A stretch of 47,475 nucleotides of DNA from an uncultured Flavobacteriales bacterium. Its GTDB lineage: Bacteria; Bacteroidota; Bacteroidia; Flavobacteriales_G; Salibacteraceae. The position numbers were made by a program, and so were the translations under genes. The notes beneath the pieces are model-generated. The model was not told the DNA's origin. It did no database searches and saw only the letters and a list, made by a program, of their open reading frames with translations. The DNA lies in the NCBI GenBank assembly GCA_913057205.1, contig CAJXNO010000019.1:1-47475 (forward strand). The letters run 5' to 3'. How positions within the stretch are numbered: the stretch's first letter is position 1; each line of letters opens with the position of its first letter. Shown in pieces: positions 35,434 through 42,901 of this stretch.

Positions 35434-36087
35434 TCAGATGCTTTCCACCATCGGCGTCAGGTCGATCTGATTGCGGTGCAGGCTGATCATGCCGTTCTGC
35501 TCCATCTTCTTGAGCAAGCGCGACACAACCTCACGCGAGGTGTTCAGGTCGTCTGCGATCTGTTGGTGGGTAGTGTTGAGGATGGTTGATTCTAAGGTGC
35601 GAGCTTGTTTGGTGAGGTAGAATTCCAAACGTTCGTCCATGGCTTTGAAGGCGATCGCATCGATCACCGTTAGGATCTCCTCGAAGCGGGTGCGGTAGGT
35701 TTCCAGAACGAAATAATACCACGACTTGTGCTCCAACATCAAGGCGTCCATCTTATCGATCGGTACCAGTATTGCCCTACTTTCTCGCATGGCGCGGGCC
35801 ATAACCTCTGAGGTCTTTTGTTGACTGGCGCAAACCATCGAAAGTGCGCAAGCGTTGCCGGGTTCGATGTAGTAAACAAAGAATTCACCGCCTTCTTCCC
35901 CTTCGCGGTAGAGTTTCACGAGTCCGTCAACAATCAACAGGGTACTGCGGAAATACTGTCCGGTTCGCATCATTTCCTCTCCCTCCTCAAAAGTCTTCAA
36001 GGTGCCGATCTCGGCTAGTTTATCTACCAGCTCAGGTTCGAACATCGGGAAGCGCTGCTCCAGCAGCTCTTTAATGGCTAAATCCAT
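35434..36087 (-). CDS. Crp/Fnr-family transcriptional regulator
   Basis: 217 residues: cyclic-nucleotide-like sensor domain (about 15-125), a long dimer helix (FVLETYRTRFEEILTVIDAI) and a winged helix-turn-helix (TTHQQIADDLNTSREVVSRL, 172-191). Recognition helix residues Ser184-Arg185-Glu186-x-x-Ser189-Arg190 carry both CRP-like Arg/Glu/Arg and FNR-like Glu/Ser/Arg contacts, expected to read GTGA half-sites. The sensor domain has two close cysteines, Cys80 and Cys86 (GNACALSMVC), and lacks the four-Cys iron-sulfur set of FNR. It heads a two-gene unit with the EI24 gene, near the sulfur-oxidation genes, and is my candidate for the factor binding the dyads found upstream of those genes. Confidence 0.93.
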   Translation of the reverse strand: MDLAIKELLEQRFPMFEPELVDKLAEIGTLKTFEEGEEMMRTGQYFRSTLLIVDGLVKLYREGEEGGEFFVYYIEPGNACALSMVCASQQKTSEVMARAMRESRAILVPIDKMDALMLEHKSWYYFVLETYRTRFEEILTVIDAIAFKAMDERLEFYLTKQARTLESTILNTTHQQIADDLNTSREVVSRLLKKMEQNGMISLHRNQIDLTPMVESI

Positions 36088-36108
36088 GGCAAGTTCTTAC
36101 GATTGGCT

Positions 36109-36116
36109 CAAATATA
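36109..36116 (-). promoter_or_regulatory. -7 box of the Crp/Fnr gene
   Basis: Minus-strand TATATTTG fits TAnnTTTG exactly, 21 bases upstream of the start codon. Confidence 0.55.
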
Positions 36117-36159
36117 GCCGATACCTGGTTTGAAAATGGTCAAAAGTGATGGACGGAAA

Positions 36160-37053
36160 CTAGGCCTTGGACTTCTTAGACCCAAAGCCGTAGAAGAGTT
36201 GTCCGAAGAATGATTTCGGCATTTCTTCCACGCCGGGGTAACCCAACTTGATGTCAGCATCGTCTTTGGGGATGCTGCTCGTTCTGAAAAGGTAATCCCA
36301 GATACTCAAGGAGATGGCATAGTTCAAGCCGTATCGTTTGCCTTCGGGTAGGTTGTATGCATGATGCCACAGGTGCATCACCGGGTTGTTGAAGATGTAC
36401 TTCAGCGGACCGTAAGTCAAGTGAATGTTTGCGTGGTTCAAGTGTCCAATGGCGATCGCTGCATAGAAAACGATGTAGGCTTGTTGGGGTGTGAACCCAC
36501 CAATCAGCATCACGGCGATGTACTTCATTGGGGTGTAGAACACGTTTTCCATCCAATGGTAGCGTAAGTGTGCTGCAAAGCCCATCTCTTCTACCGAGTG
36601 GTGCACCTTATGGAATTGCCAAAGCCAGTCATAGCGGTGAAGCAAGACGTGCGTGAACCACTGAATGAAATCGGTCACCACGAAGAATACCAGTAGCTGC
36701 AACCACCAGTTCATCGCAGAAATATCGATCAGGGCAAATTTGCTCAAATCCCCACCCAGGAGATCTTTGAATGCCATTTCCGTAACGTTGGAAAAGGCGA
36801 TGAATATGACCAGTTTGAAGATGTAGAAATTGAAGAACATGTAGAAGGTATCCAACCAGAAATCCTTGCGGAATACCGACTGGTTCTTCCGCCAAGGAAA
36901 GGCGATCTCCAAACCCCACACCACCAAAGACAACACGATCAACCACCAGAAGTAGTTGACATACCAAGGATCCACCTGAAAGGTGATCTCACGCCACGTG
37001 TAGTTAGCAAAGTCCTTAAAGGACTGTATGAATACACTCCAATACGTTTCCAT
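36160..37053 (-). CDS. Fatty-acid hydroxylase/sterol desaturase-family membrane protein
   Basis: 297 residues with several hydrophobic segments and the full set of His boxes for a di-iron site: HVLLHR (His135, His139), FHKVHHS (His148, 151, 152), HLNHANIH (His204, 207, 211) and HLWHHAYN (His227, 230, 231). Members hydroxylate or desaturate lipids, sterols or carotenoids using O2. The substrate here is unknown. It sits on the same strand between the Crp/Fnr gene and the rhodanese gene, so co-regulation with the sulfur genes is possible, but it has its own long upstream region and lacks the dyad seen in front of those genes. Confidence 0.92.
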   Translation of the reverse strand: METYWSVFIQSFKDFANYTWREITFQVDPWYVNYFWWLIVLSLVVWGLEIAFPWRKNQSVFRKDFWLDTFYMFFNFYIFKLVIFIAFSNVTEMAFKDLLGGDLSKFALIDISAMNWWLQLLVFFVVTDFIQWFTHVLLHRYDWLWQFHKVHHSVEEMGFAAHLRYHWMENVFYTPMKYIAVMLIGGFTPQQAYIVFYAAIAIGHLNHANIHLTYGPLKYIFNNPVMHLWHHAYNLPEGKRYGLNYAISLSIWDYLFRTSSIPKDDADIKLGYPGVEEMPKSFFGQLFYGFGSKKSKA

Positions 37054-37151: not shown

Positions 37152-37523
37152 CTACTTCCACCTAGAAAACCCATTAGCCAGGTTATGTACTTCGGTAAAG
37201 CCTTGCTCTTTCATGATGCTCTGTGCACGTTTGCTTCGTCCACCTGAATGACAGTAAACCAACACCGGCTTGCTTTTGTCCAAAGACGCCAATTGCTTTT
37301 CGAAATCAGGCTTTGAGATATCGATCTGTTGCGCTCCTTCGATCATTCCGTTAGCTACTTCGCCATCGGTTCGTACATCGATGATCTGCAGCTCAGCTTG
37401 GTTCGCAATGAGCTCTTTGGCTTGGGCGTTGCTCATATCGGTAAATGTACCGTTCGACTGATCTTGTTGGGCGTTGCAGGCCAATAGGGTAAAGGCCATG
37501 GCAAAAGATAGGAGATACTTCAT
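37152..37523 (-). CDS. Periplasmic rhodanese lipoprotein
   Basis: 123 residues. A lipoprotein signal ends FTLLAC (Cys16), followed by one rhodanese domain with the IIDVRTDGEVANGMIEGA segment and the catalytic Cys91 in VYCHSGGRSKRA. The loop CHSGGRS is of the sulfur-carrier type that exchanges a persulfide with thiols. It is the last gene of a translationally coupled set: its start overlaps the stop of the small membrane protein by 4 bases (ATGA), and that gene in turn overlaps SQR. Placement outside the inner membrane suggests it handles sulfane sulfur in the periplasm. Confidence 0.92.
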   Translation of the reverse strand: MKYLLSFAMAFTLLACNAQQDQSNGTFTDMSNAQAKELIANQAELQIIDVRTDGEVANGMIEGAQQIDISKPDFEKQLASLDKSKPVLVYCHSGGRSKRAQSIMKEQGFTEVHNLANGFSRWK

Positions 37524-37756
37524 GCTACTTGTTTTTTAAGTTTTAGTGTCAAAGATAGGAGCAGAAGCAACCATGGCCATCCGTGAAAGACGGTGTCAAA
37601 CCAGTCTAACGGCTGCATGCCCACAGCACCTCCTGCGATCCATTTTAGTTTTCCCCAGATGTGGGGTTCGGGGATAAAGGGAGCCAGCCCCAAAGTGAGG
37701 CTGATCATCACCCATATTCTTGTGTTTTCTTCTATACGGTTGAGTACCTGTTGCAT
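37520..37756 (-). CDS. Small two-helix membrane protein between SQR and rhodanese
   Basis: 78 residues from ATG 37756, overlapping the last base of the SQR stop (TAATG) and ending in a 4-base overlap with the rhodanese start (ATGA). There are two hydrophobic segments: IWVMISLTLGLAPFIPEPHI and WPWLLLLLSLTLKL. Between them is HIWGKLKWIAGGAVGMQPLDWFDTVFHGWP. The family resembles short membrane proteins I have seen beside sulfide-oxidation genes but I cannot name it. Tight coupling on both sides argues for a role with SQR, perhaps as a membrane anchor or sulfur carrier; this is inference. Confidence 0.8.
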   Translation of the reverse strand: MQQVLNRIEENTRIWVMISLTLGLAPFIPEPHIWGKLKWIAGGAVGMQPLDWFDTVFHGWPWLLLLLSLTLKLKKQVA

Positions 37757-39018
37757 TACATGTTTCCTTTCATCATGCGATTCCAGTATAAGTAGGGAAG
37801 TCCGTACTTTTTGAGCAACCACATGCTGTATTGTTCTTTACTCGTGTCGATTACTGAAGAGATGACCGGGTCACTGTCTCGTACGTTATCGTATTTGAAC
37901 TCTGCTAATACCATCTTGCCGTAGCCGGTTACGAGTGGACAAGAGGAATAGCCTTCGTATTGCTTCACACCTAGTTTTTGTTGTTTCCGCATCATTAGGA
38001 TGTTTTCGGTTACCACAGGCGCTTGCTTACGAACGGCAGCACCCGTCTTTGCGGTAGGTAAAGCTGCTACGTCTCCTAAACCAAAGATGTTCGGATAATC
38101 CTTGTGTTGAAGGGTGTGGTGATCAACATTCAGCCAGCCTTTGCTTGGACCTTCTTGATGGGCTAATGGCGAATTGCGCACAAAATCCGGTGCTTGTTGG
38201 GGTGGGGCTAGGTGCAAGATGTCATAGGGCATCGTAACAAAGCTTTCTCCTTCAACTTGCTCTTGGAGATGAGGGTCTTCATTGATTACGCAACCGTTCT
38301 CACCTGCTTGGGTGTGATGGAAGGTAATGGTTTTATCCTTCGAGTTGATCTCATGCGGGGCGTAGAAGGTCTTGAAGTAGATTCCATATCGCTCAATCAC
38401 TGACATCAATGTTCCTGCGAACTCCTTTACGCCAAAAATCACTGAGCCGGGTGTGGCGAACACTACATTCACATCATCTAATCGCTGTTTCTTAAAGTAG
38501 TCGGCCGCTAAATAGGCGATCTTCTGTGGTGCTCCACCACATTTAATGGGCGTTGTTGGTTGGGTAAATACCGCATTACCTTTTTTAAGCGATTTGATTG
38601 CTTTCCAGGTCTTTTTCGGGTCGAGGTAATTGCTTACAACATCGGGTGTTTCCAGTGCTTCACGCAAACCAGTGATGCCATCCAGATTGTATTGGATGCC
38701 AGGTGCTACGATTAGGTAGTCATAAGTAATGGCGCCGCTAGACTTTGTGTTGACCGTATTGGCTTCCGGTTCAAAGCTTGTAGCATAATCCTGAATCCAT
38801 TTTACCCCTTGAGGAATGAGGTCTTTTTCTGATCGGCGGGTTTTGTTGTAATCAAACGTTCCGGCACCTACCAAGGTCCATGCGGCTTGATACCAGTGGT
38901 GCTCAGAGGGTTCAATGATACCAACGTCAATGCTTTTGTCGTTGTTGCGCAATTGGGCAGCGGTCATGATACCAGCGGTACCTCCGCCTATGATCAATAC
39001 TTCATAGTGTGTCTTCAT
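37756..39018 (-). CDS. sqr: Sulfide:quinone oxidoreductase (type II-like)
   Basis: 420 residues from ATG 39018. The FAD-binding start LIIGGGTAGI (8-17) and the second FAD motif NIFGLGDVAALPTAKTGAAV are present. The two redox cysteines fit type II SQR: Cys160 in IKCGGAPQK and Cys360 in YSSCPLVTG. The C-terminus has an amphipathic segment (EQYSMWLLKKYGLPYLYW) for membrane attachment. It oxidises sulfide to sulfane sulfur and feeds electrons to menaquinone. It heads the SQR-membrane protein-rhodanese operon and has its own promoter with a dyad (39043-39086). Confidence 0.93.
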   Translation of the reverse strand: MKTHYEVLIIGGGTAGIMTAAQLRNNDKSIDVGIIEPSEHHWYQAAWTLVGAGTFDYNKTRRSEKDLIPQGVKWIQDYATSFEPEANTVNTKSSGAITYDYLIVAPGIQYNLDGITGLREALETPDVVSNYLDPKKTWKAIKSLKKGNAVFTQPTTPIKCGGAPQKIAYLAADYFKKQRLDDVNVVFATPGSVIFGVKEFAGTLMSVIERYGIYFKTFYAPHEINSKDKTITFHHTQAGENGCVINEDPHLQEQVEGESFVTMPYDILHLAPPQQAPDFVRNSPLAHQEGPSKGWLNVDHHTLQHKDYPNIFGLGDVAALPTAKTGAAVRKQAPVVTENILMMRKQQKLGVKQYEGYSSCPLVTGYGKMVLAEFKYDNVRDSDPVISSVIDTSKEQYSMWLLKKYGLPYLYWNRMMKGNM

Positions 39019-39042: not shown

Positions 39043-39086
39043 CAATGATACACCTTACCCAACGCCTGTTTTGTGACCAAAGGCAC
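39043..39086 (-). promoter_or_regulatory. SQR promoter with Crp/Fnr-like dyad
   Basis: In gene direction: dyad GTGCCTTTGGTCAC (39073-39086), then 22 bases, then TATCATTG (39043-39050, one mismatch to TAnnTTTG), 24 bases before the SQR start. The weakest member of the five-promoter set by -7 box, but the spacing is identical. Confidence 0.5.
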
Positions 39087-39092
39087 ATGGTC

Positions 39093-39416
39093 TTAAGCTG
39101 CGTCAACAGATTGAATGACCTCAAGCAAATGTTGCGCACTCATCACGCCGGATTGGCGCCACTTGATCTCACCGTTCTTGAAGATCATAAGGGTAGGTAC
39201 CCCACGGATCTGGAAGGTGCTGGATGCCATTGGGTTCTTGTCTACGTCGATCTTGATGATGCGTACGTTGTCATCCACCATCCCATTCAATTCCTGAAGG
39301 ATGGGTTGCAGCATCTTGCACGGTGCACACCAATCGGCGTAGAAGTCGACCAAAACGGTCTTACCTGAGTTTACAATGTCAGAGAATCGCTCTTTCTTTA
39401 CTTCGCTTGTTTCCAT
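39093..39416 (-). CDS. Thioredoxin
   Basis: 107 residues from ATG 39416. It is a full thioredoxin fold with active site Cys30-Ala-Pro-Cys33 (WCAPCKMLQP, less common than WCGPC), the buried Asp in VLVDFYADW, and the cis-proline loop GVPTLMIF. It is cytoplasmic (no signal). The location between SQR and the dioxygenase-like gene suggests it reduces protein or small-molecule persulfides in this pathway. It has its own promoter with a dyad (39438-39481). Confidence 0.95.
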   Translation of the reverse strand: METSEVKKERFSDIVNSGKTVLVDFYADWCAPCKMLQPILQELNGMVDDNVRIIKIDVDKNPMASSTFQIRGVPTLMIFKNGEIKWRQSGVMSAQHLLEVIQSVDAA

Positions 39417-39437
39417 AGCTGTTTCAAATTCTAGGGA

Positions 39438-39481
39438 CAAAGGTCAGTAAACCGTGTTGCAGCTACAGTAACAGAAGTCAC
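39438..39481 (-). promoter_or_regulatory. Thioredoxin promoter with Crp/Fnr-like dyad
   Basis: In gene direction: GTGACTTCTGTTAC (39468-39481), 22 bases, then GACCTTTG (39438-39445), 21 bases before the start. Both half-sites follow GTnAC. Confidence 0.65.
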
Positions 39482-39485
39482 ACTG

Positions 39486-40007
39486 CTAAGCCAAGCTCTT
39501 GTCATTCTTGGTCAGAACATCCTTCAAGCTTCCATCGGATTCATTGTAGATGGTCCATTGGGTGATCTTGTCTGCATAAAGGTGAATGGCGATGCTCTCT
39601 TCATCACCAATGCTCCTAAACCGGTGGAAGCCGAAGCCATCATTCAGGTATATGAACTCGCCGCGTTCGATGACTTGCGTTTCAATCAGATCCGCTCGAC
39701 CTTCTGTTATTCGATAGTGCTCCAATTCCAAGGCTCCCTTTAGCACTTTTACCCAGCCTTGTTGAAAGTTGTAGTTATGAATTGGGGTGTCGATTCCCGA
39801 ACGCCAGTAGGTGATGATGGCCTCCAGGCTAGGCGTGTCGTAAATGCTGACTCGCATGTGATCCTTGCTCATCCAATCGCAGAGTTCAAGTAGTTCCATC
39901 GGGTTGAGTTCGATGGAATCCACCAAGGTCTTGTAACCGTCGTAACCCGGTCCCAAGTTGAGGTTGTATACCAGCTGGTCTAGTGTGGTGATCTTTGGTG
40001 CCATCAT
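39486..40007 (-). CDS. Cysteine-dioxygenase-like cupin with a changed metal site
   Basis: 173 residues from ATG 40007 (a good GGAG lies just upstream; TTG 40028 is not needed). The fold follows cysteine dioxygenase: DHMRVSIY (Arg52, equivalent to the substrate-binding Arg60 of rat CDO), TPIHNYNFQQGWVKVLKG (cupin motif 1), GFGFHRFRS (His128, equivalent to His140) and AIHLYADK (His142, Tyr144, equivalent to His155/Tyr157). But the first-motif His-x-His is His77-Asn-Tyr79, so one of the three Fe-binding histidines is replaced by Tyr, and the triad Ser is Ala140. It may bind metal differently, act on another thiol, or be inactive. It lies within the sulfur locus with its own dyad-bearing promoter. 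Confidence 0.8.
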   Translation of the reverse strand: MMAPKITTLDQLVYNLNLGPGYDGYKTLVDSIELNPMELLELCDWMSKDHMRVSIYDTPSLEAIITYWRSGIDTPIHNYNFQQGWVKVLKGALELEHYRITEGRADLIETQVIERGEFIYLNDGFGFHRFRSIGDEESIAIHLYADKITQWTIYNESDGSLKDVLTKNDKSLA

Positions 40008-40025
40008 AGCTCCTGCGATTTTTGC

Positions 40026-40185: not shown

Positions 40186-41598
40186 TTACAGCATGGTTGT
40201 TTGCTCTTGGAAATCTGATACGGGCAGACCATCCACTTGCTTCATGGCATTGAAGCCACCCAGCACATTCGCTACTTCAGCTACGCCGAGTTTCTTGAGG
40301 ATGGATGCGGCTGCCACGGAGCGGTATCCGCCGGCACAATGCACCGTAAAGTTTTTGCTTTTGTCCAGGTCACCTGCATTCTGGTAGATGAAGTCCAATG
40401 GGAAGTTGGTAACACCATCCACATGCTGGCTGTCGTACTCACTTTTCTTTCGTACGTCCAACACGTTCATCTCTTCCACCGGATACTTCGCTACGAAGTC
40501 TTCTGGGGCAATATTCTCGATGCTGTCTAGCGCATTACCTGCTGCTGTCCAAGCTTCGATACCGCCCTTCAAGAATCCTACGGGGTTATCGTAACCCACA
40601 CGTGCCATACGCGTGATTACTTCTTCTTCCCTTCCTTCATCTGCGATCATCAATACAGGTGCCTGTAGGTCTTCAATCAGCACACCCATCCAAGGAGCGA
40701 AGTTGTCATCGATCCCGATGAAGATGGAGGATGGAATGAAACCTTCGGTGAACTTGGAGTGGTGACGGGTATCGATGATGATGGTTCCTTCTTTCTCCAT
40801 TGCTGCTTTGAACTCATCTACGCTGAGGAACTTCATGCCCTGCTCGAGCACGTTGTCAAAGCTTTCATAGCCCATCTTGTTCATCACCGCATTCTTTGGG
40901 AAGTACTGTGGAGGTGCCACCAAGCCGGTGATCACTTCCTTGATGAACTCCTCCTTACCCATATCGGCGCGGAGCGCATAGTTTGTGCGTTTCTGATTGC
41001 CCAGGGTATCGGTGGTCTCCTTACTCATGTTCTTACCACAAGCGCTGCCTTGTCCGTGGCCTGGATAAACGATCACATCCTCTGGAAGCGGCATAATCTT
41101 GTTGCGCAAAGAATCAAACAGGTGTGCTGCCAGGTCTTCTTGGGTCAGGTCGGTTTTCACCGCAAGGTCAGGTCTACCGACATCGCCGATGAAGAGTGTA
41201 TCACCGGTGTAGATGCTGTGCTCTTTACCATTTTCGTCCAGTACCAAGAAGGTAGAAGACTCCATGGTATGTCCAGGAGTGTGCAATACCTTGATGTTGA
41301 TGTTGCCCAAAGGAAGCAGTTCACCATCTTCAGCTACATGCGCGTCGAAATTCGGCTGAGCCGTAGGTCCGTACACGATTTTGGCTCCGGTCTTCTTCGC
41401 GAGGTCCAAATGGCCAGAGACAAAATCGGCATGGAAGTGTGTTTCAAGCACGTATTTGATGGTAGCGCCACGTTCCTCGGCCATCTTGATGTACGGCTCG
41501 GTTTCACGCAGTGGGTCGATAATGGCAGCTTCGCCATTGGATTCGATGTAATAGGCTGCTTCAGCCAAACATCCGGTATAGATCTGTTCTATTTTCAT
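40186..41598 (-). CDS. ETHE1-like persulfide dioxygenase fused to two rhodanese domains
   Basis: 470 residues from ATG 41598 (41607 is possible). The N-terminal metallo-beta-lactamase domain (1-235) has THFHADFVSGH (His54, His56, Asp58, His63), His110 (LHTPGH), Asp133 (TGDTLF) and His181 (YPGHG). His54, His110 and Asp133 match the ETHE1 iron ligands. Rhodanese domain 1 (about 258-350) lacks the catalytic Cys (VLMIADEG at its loop). Domain 2 (about 365-465) has Cys421 in VHCAGGYRS. ETHE1 oxidises glutathione persulfide to sulfite; the rhodanese can transfer sulfur to or from sulfite. A terminator follows, and a dyad-bearing promoter precedes it. Confidence 0.92.
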   Translation of the reverse strand: MKIEQIYTGCLAEAAYYIESNGEAAIIDPLRETEPYIKMAEERGATIKYVLETHFHADFVSGHLDLAKKTGAKIVYGPTAQPNFDAHVAEDGELLPLGNINIKVLHTPGHTMESSTFLVLDENGKEHSIYTGDTLFIGDVGRPDLAVKTDLTQEDLAAHLFDSLRNKIMPLPEDVIVYPGHGQGSACGKNMSKETTDTLGNQKRTNYALRADMGKEEFIKEVITGLVAPPQYFPKNAVMNKMGYESFDNVLEQGMKFLSVDEFKAAMEKEGTIIIDTRHHSKFTEGFIPSSIFIGIDDNFAPWMGVLIEDLQAPVLMIADEGREEEVITRMARVGYDNPVGFLKGGIEAWTAAGNALDSIENIAPEDFVAKYPVEEMNVLDVRKKSEYDSQHVDGVTNFPLDFIYQNAGDLDKSKNFTVHCAGGYRSVAAASILKKLGVAEVANVLGGFNAMKQVDGLPVSDFQEQTTML

Positions 41599-41639
41599 AT
41601 AACTCATGTTTTGGTTTAACGGATCAATGATTAACAGCA

Positions 41640-41706
41640 CAAAGGTGAGGAGAAGCACCCGGGCTCAAAGTGACTTGAGTTACATGGGGAAGATGACTTG
41701 GGTCAC
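41640..41706 (-). promoter_or_regulatory. Promoter of the persulfide dioxygenase with two dyads
   Basis: In gene direction: upstream dyad GTGACCCAAGTCAT (41693-41706), 9 bases, proximal dyad GTAACTCAAGTCAC (41670-41683), TTTG, 18 bases, CACCTTTG (41640-41647). The two dyads are 23 bp apart centre to centre. The best-defined promoter of the set. Confidence 0.7.
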
Positions 41707-41711
41707 GTTTT

Positions 41712-41802
41712 TAGCTGTCTGTCATTAGCTGTCGGCTATCAGCTGTCGGCTATCAGCTGTCGGCTATCAGGAGCTAGGGGCTAGGGGCTAGGAGCTAGAG
41801 GT
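41712..41802. repeat. Heptamer tandem repeat, 13 units
   Basis: Thirteen 7-base units in one register: TAGCTGT, CTGTCAT, TAGCTGT, then CGGCTAT/CAGCTGT alternating to CGGCTAT, then CAGGAGC, TAGGGGC twice, TAGGAGC, TAGAGGT. The unit sequence drifts from GCTGTC-type to TAGGGGC-type without losing register. It fills part of the 324-base gap between the persulfide dioxygenase and TauE genes. Confidence 0.9.
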
Positions 41803-41890: not shown

Positions 41891-41925
41891 ACTAAGTACT
41901 CTGTACTAGCTACTAAGTACTACTA
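41891..41925. repeat. Heptamer repeat of the ACTAAGT type, 5 units
   Basis: ACTAAGT, ACTCTGT, ACTAGCT, ACTAAGT, ACTACTA in register. It runs to the stop codon of the TauE gene (41923). Confidence 0.8.
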
Positions 41926-42738
41926 AAAAATCTCACTCAAAAGAATCCCTGCTCCCATCACCAGTACAAACCAACCGAAACCGGTTTTCAGCTTGCTGCC
42001 ATCGATCTTGGTGCTGAGGTAGCTGCCCAAGAAGATACCGGCTGCGGCTAGCGCGGTGAAGCTGGCGAGGAAGGTCCAGTCTACTTCGTAGTTGGAGAGG
42101 TCACCGAGGAAGCCGATGAGCGACTTGGCGGAAATGATGACCAATGAGGTGCCAATCGCGGTTTTCATCGGTAGTTTCGCGAAGAGAACAAGGGCCGGTA
42201 TGATCAAGAATCCACCGCCTGCTCCAACCAGTCCGGTGAGGGTTCCAACCACGATTCCCTCTGCCAGCACTACAAGCGGGGTGATCCAACCGGCCCTATT
42301 CTTTTGTTCTGTTGATTTTGCTTCCGTTTCTTTTGGCGCCTTTTTCTTTCTGATCATTCCCACCGATGCAAAGAGCATCAACAAGGCAAAGAGCAACATC
42401 AAGAAGGCATCCTTGGTCAAATCAAACGACCCAATCTGCATCAACTCCTCCGGAATTGCAGGCACTAGGAAGCGCCGTGTTAAGTACACCGCAGCAATAC
42501 TCGGCAACCCGAAAAGGATGGCTGTTTTAAAGTCTACCAACTGCTGGCGGGCGTAGCGCACTGCTCCAACCAAGCTAGAAGCTCCCACAATGAAAAGCGA
42601 GTATGCCGTAGCCATAACGGGTGAAATGCCGATGAGGTAGACCAACACCGGAACGGTTAAGATGGAGCCACCACCGCCGATCAAGCCGAGCGAAACCCCA
42701 ATCAAAATAGCCGCTGCGAATCCGATGATCTCTAACAT
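41923..42738 (-). CDS. TauE/SafE-family anion exporter
   Basis: 271 residues from ATG 42738 with about eight membrane helices. The family signature appears twice: GVSLGLIGGGGSILTVPVLV near the start and GTLTGLVGAGGGFLIIPALV in the second half. A soluble loop (MIRKKKAPKETEAKSTEQKN) splits the halves. TauE/SafE proteins export sulfite, sulfoacetate and similar anions; here sulfite made by the persulfide dioxygenase is the likely cargo (inference). The promoter has the same dyad layout as the dioxygenase gene downstream. Confidence 0.93.
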   Translation of the reverse strand: MLEIIGFAAAILIGVSLGLIGGGGSILTVPVLVYLIGISPVMATAYSLFIVGASSLVGAVRYARQQLVDFKTAILFGLPSIAAVYLTRRFLVPAIPEELMQIGSFDLTKDAFLMLLFALLMLFASVGMIRKKKAPKETEAKSTEQKNRAGWITPLVVLAEGIVVGTLTGLVGAGGGFLIIPALVLFAKLPMKTAIGTSLVIISAKSLIGFLGDLSNYEVDWTFLASFTALAAAGIFLGSYLSTKIDGSKLKTGFGWFVLVMGAGILLSEIF

Positions 42739-42743
42739 GAGGG

Positions 42744-42787
42744 CAAAGGTGAGCTTTTCAAATGGGGCGCAATGTGACTTAGGTACC
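42744..42787 (-). promoter_or_regulatory. TauE promoter with Crp/Fnr-like dyad
   Basis: In gene direction: GGTACCTAAGTCAC (42774-42787), ATTG, 18 bases, CACCTTTG (42744-42751), 5 bases before the start codon. The spacing equals that of the persulfide dioxygenase promoter. Confidence 0.65.
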
Positions 42788-42804
42788 AAAGAGACCTTTG
42801 AAGG

Positions 42805-42853
42805 AGCTGTCGGCTGTCGGCTGTCAGCTGTCAGCTATCAGCTATCAGTTGTC
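42805..42853. repeat. Heptamer tandem repeat, 7 units
   Basis: AGCTGTC, GGCTGTC twice, AGCTGTC, AGCTATC twice, AGTTGTC in register, upstream of TauE and purB (divergent). Confidence 0.85.
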
Positions 42854-42901
42854 AGGATAGTCTATCTTGTTGGAGGGCTCGATACATCCACGCCCGGTTC
42901 G

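Follow-up and report, generated by a model that had tools for sequence, protein, structure and literature searches.

A Crp/Fnr-type regulator gene among sulfur genes

Which genes does a Crp/Fnr-type protein encoded among sulfide and persulfide genes control, and which signal does it sense? We addressed this question for a locus of an uncultured Flavobacteriales bacterium, in a window (the whole stretch of DNA analysed) of 47,475 nucleotides. The regulator gene lies on the minus strand at 35434-36087, starts with ATG and encodes 217 residues, in agreement with the initial annotation. Pfam assigns a cNMP_binding domain (PF00027, 33.3 bits) and an HTH_Crp_2 domain (PF13545, 44.5 bits), both above the cut-off, and the best Foldseek matches are Crp/Fnr proteins. 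The score against the CRP equivalog model is 43.6 bits, far below the cut-off of 266. Three places in this genome exceed the HTH_Crp_2 cut-off, and the regulator is the sole member of the cysteine-containing family among them. Residues 184-190 of the recognition helix are Ser-Arg-Glu-Val-Val-Ser-Arg, and Cys80 and Cys86 lie within GNACALSMVC, as first described. These are the only two cysteines of the protein, so that the absence of an FNR-type four-cysteine cluster, also claimed earlier, holds. The AlphaFold model (overall confidence 86.6) is confident everywhere except at residues 81-90 (pLDDT 54), suggesting that this loop is possibly mobile.

The regulator belongs to a block of genes that are all on the minus strand. 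The block comprises a CysZ-like gene, the regulator, a fatty-acid hydroxylase, a rhodanese downstream of the SQR gene (37152-37523), a small membrane protein, an SQR-like flavoprotein (37756-39018), a thioredoxin (39093-39418), a cysteine-dioxygenase-like cupin (39486-40010; PF05995, 26.9 bits), a PDO, which is a persulfide-dioxygenase-type metallo-beta-lactamase with two rhodanese domains (40186-41607), and a TauE/SafE-family transporter (41923-42738). The SQR-like, thioredoxin, PDO and TauE genes are the predicted targets. The best model for the SQR-like protein is a type III sulfide:quinone reductase selenoprotein, with a score well under the cut-off. The cupin gene, placed between the thioredoxin and PDO genes, possibly encodes a thiol or persulfide dioxygenase, and a homologue is found in the block of two relatives of the same genus (L143 and L145). 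Whole-protein searches and one collection scan yielded a set of 201 homologous loci, which represent a family of Bacteroidota. The neighbourhood of PDO, TauE and rhodanese genes is conserved in most orthologues.

Operator dyads in the window

GTGAC arms had been noted upstream of the sulfur genes. We found four sites with at most one mismatch to GTGAC-N4-GTCAC in the window, one upstream of SQR, one upstream of thioredoxin and two upstream of PDO, together with one two-mismatch dyad upstream of TauE, which bears out that observation. All of them are on the minus strand. The SQR dyad GTGCCTTTGGTCAC (39073-39086) is 22 nt from a -7 box, TATCATTG (39043-39050), and the thioredoxin dyad GTGACTTCTGTTAC (39468-39481) is 22 nt from GACCTTTG (39438-39445). 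At PDO, the proximal dyad GTAACTCAAGTCAC (41670-41683) lies 22 nt from CACCTTTG (41640-41647), and a distal dyad GTGACCCAAGTCAT (41693-41706), 23 bp further upstream, has no box at this distance. The TauE dyad GGTACCTAAGTCAC (42774-42787) is 22 nt from another copy of CACCTTTG (42744-42751), and the same dyad-to-box spacing is therefore obeyed by all four predicted target genes. At TauE, no more than 5 nt separate the end of the box from the ATG (42738-42787, minus strand), and the transcript is therefore predicted to be leaderless or nearly so.

Counted over the whole window, two-mismatch dyads show no excess (16, with 18.7 expected by chance), indicating that the signal is the placement of the dyads. 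Sites with at most one mismatch number 41 in 2.83 Mb, whereas the roughly 1.5 kb of upstream DNA alone contain four (Poisson P about 9e-9). The region upstream of the regulator gene itself (36088-36160) contains no dyad with two or fewer mismatches, hence no candidate autoregulatory site there. A repeat with a 14-nt period, GCTGTCGGCTATCA, is found in the upstream regions of both PDO and TauE (41700-41786 and 42799-42857), about 1.06 kb apart, and is adjoined by a second repeat family, TTCCTAATACC.

Operator motif and residue 186 across relatives

We then investigated the upstream regions of sulfur genes in the relatives, counting palindromes of the form 5+N+5 with no preset motif. Among the loci whose regulator has Glu186 (E186), GTGAC-N4 was found in 23 loci versus 1 in the shuffle; the sole equally frequent palindrome was an A/T-rich word, AAAAC with spacer 0 (24 versus 4). 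In the group with Val186 (V186), GTAAC-N4 ranked first (10 loci versus 2). GTGAC dyads with at most one mismatch are present in 74 of 99 close loci, versus 1.6 expected from shuffles. Of the 54 V186 loci, 14 have an exact GTAAC dyad (about 0.2 in shuffles) and one has an exact GTGAC dyad. An anchored search that left the third base of the half-site free gave 147 E186 sites and 27 V186 sites: G is present at this base in at least one half of 144 of the former, and 24 of the latter have no G.

R185, E186 and R190 of the regulator are at the places of R180, E181 and R185 of CRP. Classical CAP mutants at position 181 shift the preference to A:T at the fourth base pair of TGTGA. The base that varies with residue 186 belongs to this very pair, the cytosine of which is contacted by Glu181 and the guanine by Arg185 in CRP (PMC11253593). 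The Glu186/Val186 split may therefore be a natural repeat of the base-recognition rule of CRP. Among loci with sites, the tree contains only about two independent changes between E186 and V186, too few for an independent-pairs test of V186 against A-type operators to reach significance. There are also exceptions at PDO sites unlinked to the regulator, two with Glu yet GTAAC (L376 and L309) and two with Val yet G (L411 and L413). For both reasons, the match between residue and operator base gives strong correlative support rather than proof.

Regulon and dependence on the regulator

PDO promoters unlinked to a regulator gene carry the dyad and box in 15 of 35 cases in genomes with the regulator, versus 2 of 47 in genomes without it (Fisher p = 4e-5). 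One of these two positives comes from an incomplete genome (G028), and other genomes of its genus do have the regulator. The earlier proposal that the helix reads GTGA-type half-sites gains from this dependence, from the de novo GTGAC-N4-GTCAC motif and from the GTAAC shift in V186 proteins, and the dyads are likely operators.

In the genus of the window, dyad-and-box sites away from the regulator precede genes for rhodaneses, DUF302 proteins, PDO, thioredoxin, a YgaP-like membrane protein, TrhO and a conserved secreted protein. Some precede unrelated genes (3-hydroxyacyl-CoA dehydrogenase-like and peptide deformylase-like) or no open reading frame. No peroxide-defence genes were found among the dyad-and-box targets examined. 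Across the genome, the bare dyad shows no enrichment, with 41 sites versus 71 for a reversed control, and nearly all the remaining bare dyads examined are inside open reading frames; only the combination of dyad and box is therefore informative.

The genome of the window has a perfect dyad and box (C32:30531) before a gene for a secreted protein of about 500 residues with no Pfam match. A related secreted protein of similar length, also with no Pfam match, is preceded by a one-mismatch dyad and box in a second genome of the genus (L442). In the genome of the window, a TrhO-type rhodanese gene (UPF0176) closely follows another one-mismatch dyad and box (C15:345). The same genome encodes a second PDO (contig C33, 6519-7874), which is 59% identical to the first; its upstream region has no dyad and box, so that it probably falls outside the regulon.

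Conservation of the cysteines and the signal

The initial annotation had regarded the cysteine pair as a plausible redox or persulfide switch and had asked whether both cysteines are kept only beside SQR or PDO genes. Only G55, Y72, C80, H174, R185 and R190 are strictly invariant in the 201 proteins, a degree of conservation well above what chance would give. C80 is present in all 201, including copies with no sulfur neighbours, and is absent from the other Crp/Fnr paralogues of the same genomes, many of which carry the GE-type cassette that is usual for such proteins, in a comparison that also includes E. coli CRP. C86 is found in 115 of 115 close orthologues with E186, and Gly, Ala, Ser or other residues replace it in deeper clades. 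In the set collected without cysteine bias (loci L141-L260, from the whole-protein search), a sulfur gene lies within 9 kb of 53 of the 75 copies with C86 versus 13 of the 46 without it. Loci L032-L111 were left out of these statistics because their search motif included the cysteines. The tree requires five changes of C86, and the association consequently depends on few events. Copies lacking C86 also occur beside PDO, TauE, rhodanese or thioredoxin genes, with GTAAC dyads (L170, L217, L232, L234 and L248 among them).

The strict two-cysteine rule fails in both directions, with C80 kept everywhere and C86 missing in several sulfur-linked copies, making C80, rather than the pair, the likelier core residue as judged from conservation. 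Since C86 is not needed for the sulfur linkage, a two-thiol switch cannot be general. The retention of C80 in copies with no sulfur neighbours means that it may serve a broader signal, such as redox state, a metal or heme. We infer that the regulon is best explained by reactive sulfur acting on C80, joined by C86 as its partner in the main lineage, and put sensing through C80 at even odds or marginally better.

C80 could instead bind a cofactor, either a metal or, by the thiolate ligation that CooA uses, heme. The same regulon would then answer to O2, NO, CO or H2S. The heme ligands of CooA are Cys75/His77 and an N-terminal proline, and its cysteine is in the loop that corresponds to the C80 loop. 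CooA is also among the distant PDB matches of the profile, one invariant cysteine would suffice for ligation, and C86 is dispensable. However, none of the histidines of the sensor domain is invariant among the 201 homologues, and among the His, Cys, Met, Tyr and Trp residues of this domain only Y72 never varies besides C80. The predicted regulon is also specifically one of sulfur handling, and we regard a cofactor as unlikely. A general thiol redox switch, in which a disulfide or peroxide chemistry of C80 and C86 would control the sulfur genes as redox-linked genes, seems less likely still. The two cysteines are six residues apart in a loop of uncertain structure (pLDDT 54 at 81-90), and a thioredoxin gene is within the regulon, but single-cysteine clades retain both the sulfur linkage and the operators, and peroxide-defence genes are missing from the targets examined.

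Promoter geometry and mode of action

Reactive sulfur at C80 remains the preferred signal, and the promoters suggest what the regulator would do in response. Among 126 dyads of E186 loci, TAnnTTTG, the -7 box of Bacteroidota, is found 22 nt downstream (offset 22) in 96 (32 with 6/6 and 64 with 5/6 matches), whereas any other offset has it in at most 8. V186 sites behave alike, with the box at offset 22 in 15 of 25. In all, 109 loci have a dyad and a box at 21-23 nt, versus 2-9 at control offsets. In mapped Flavobacterium promoters, the TAnnTTTG box spans -12 to -5 (PMC9723704). Placed from these coordinates, a dyad with 22-nt spacing would extend from -48 to -35, with its centre at -41.5. We therefore infer an activator of the target genes from the fixed position of the dyad. 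The position -41.5 is that of class II activators in CRP and FNR. The part of our explanation concerning the operator and class II activation is, on these sequence grounds, very probably correct. A repressor inactivated by polysulfide is improbable, since a repressor needs no fixed spacing and the spacing to the -7 box at the class II position is fixed in more than 100 loci, even though the dyad abuts the -33 region and the best-known persulfide regulators of such operons, CstR, SqrR and BigR, are repressors (PMC9774590). The earlier likening of the regulator to these three proteins consequently misleads as to the mode of action.

We propose that a CRP-type dimer would bind T-GTGAC-N4-GTCAC-A dyads centred at -41.5, with R185, E186 and R190 reading the half-site as R180, E181 and R185 do in CRP. 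The bound dimer would substitute for the -33 element and contact RNA polymerase as a class II activator. It would activate SQR, thioredoxin, PDO-rhodanese and TauE in the window, and rhodanese, DUF302 and YgaP-like genes elsewhere. The signal would be reactive sulfur, a persulfide or polysulfide, at Cys80, where CRP holds the cAMP phosphate, and Cys86, where present, may act as a partner or resolving thiol. We give this whole explanation, a class II activator of sulfide and persulfide genes with reactive sulfur acting on Cys80, a probability of about 0.55. If it is true, Bacteroidota would have a sulfide-response activator, an operator code would be ready for regulon prediction in many genomes, and the CRP pocket would, in this family, have exchanged ligand binding for thiol chemistry.

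Comparison with known systems

To our knowledge, no Crp/Fnr protein has been established as a dedicated reactive-sulfur regulator. We found none in the open-access papers searched, nor any work on this regulator family or any experiment on a member. One review (PMC9774590) names CstR, SqrR/BigR and FisR, along with general regulators such as OxyR. The broadest reading has somewhat less than an even chance: these proteins would make up a large and so far uncharacterised Crp/Fnr family, found in Bacteroidota and with at least one relative in a Firmicute. Its cyclic-nucleotide pocket would now be the cysteine-based reactive-sulfur receptor of an allosteric, persulfide-sensing class II activator, with a natural, operator-matched Glu-to-Val specificity switch.

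The regulator belongs to the Crp/Fnr superfamily, since it has both a sensor domain of the cNMP-binding fold and a C-terminal Crp-type winged helix. By the sequence features tested, it is not cAMP-CRP, FNR or CooA. It shares with E. coli CRP/CAP the fold, the R-E-x-x-x-R reading of GTGA and the class II position at -41.5. However, CRP contacts the cAMP phosphate through a Glu and an Arg, and this Glu72 and Arg82 cassette is absent from the regulator, whose GNACALSMVC loop has no GE motif and carries the invariant Cys instead. FNR has four cysteines for its 4Fe-4S cluster, whereas the regulator has two. CooA has a Cys/His heme pair, whereas no sensor-domain His is kept throughout this family. 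The closest solved relative by sequence (8e-30) is EUBREC_1222 of Eubacterium rectale (PDB 3dv8), an uncharacterised Firmicute protein of the Crp/Fnr family, which shares the C-x5-C arrangement (MCLLSASC).

CstR, SqrR and BigR also govern persulfide-handling operons, and the protein of the window resembles them in having a cysteine pair. They differ in being repressors of the CsoR or ArsR fold. Their two conserved cysteines form di- to tetrasulfide links; in the regulator family both cysteines are present in all 115 close orthologues, and deeper sulfur-linked copies lose the second. In Cupriavidus and Acinetobacter, reactive sulfur leads FisR to activate a PDO/SQR/rhodanese operon (PMC7315123, PMC9774590). 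The regulator would likewise activate PDO/SQR-type genes, presumably in response to reactive sulfur, but FisR is an unrelated protein that needs sigma54, whereas the regulator would act at a sigmaA-type TAnnTTTG promoter.
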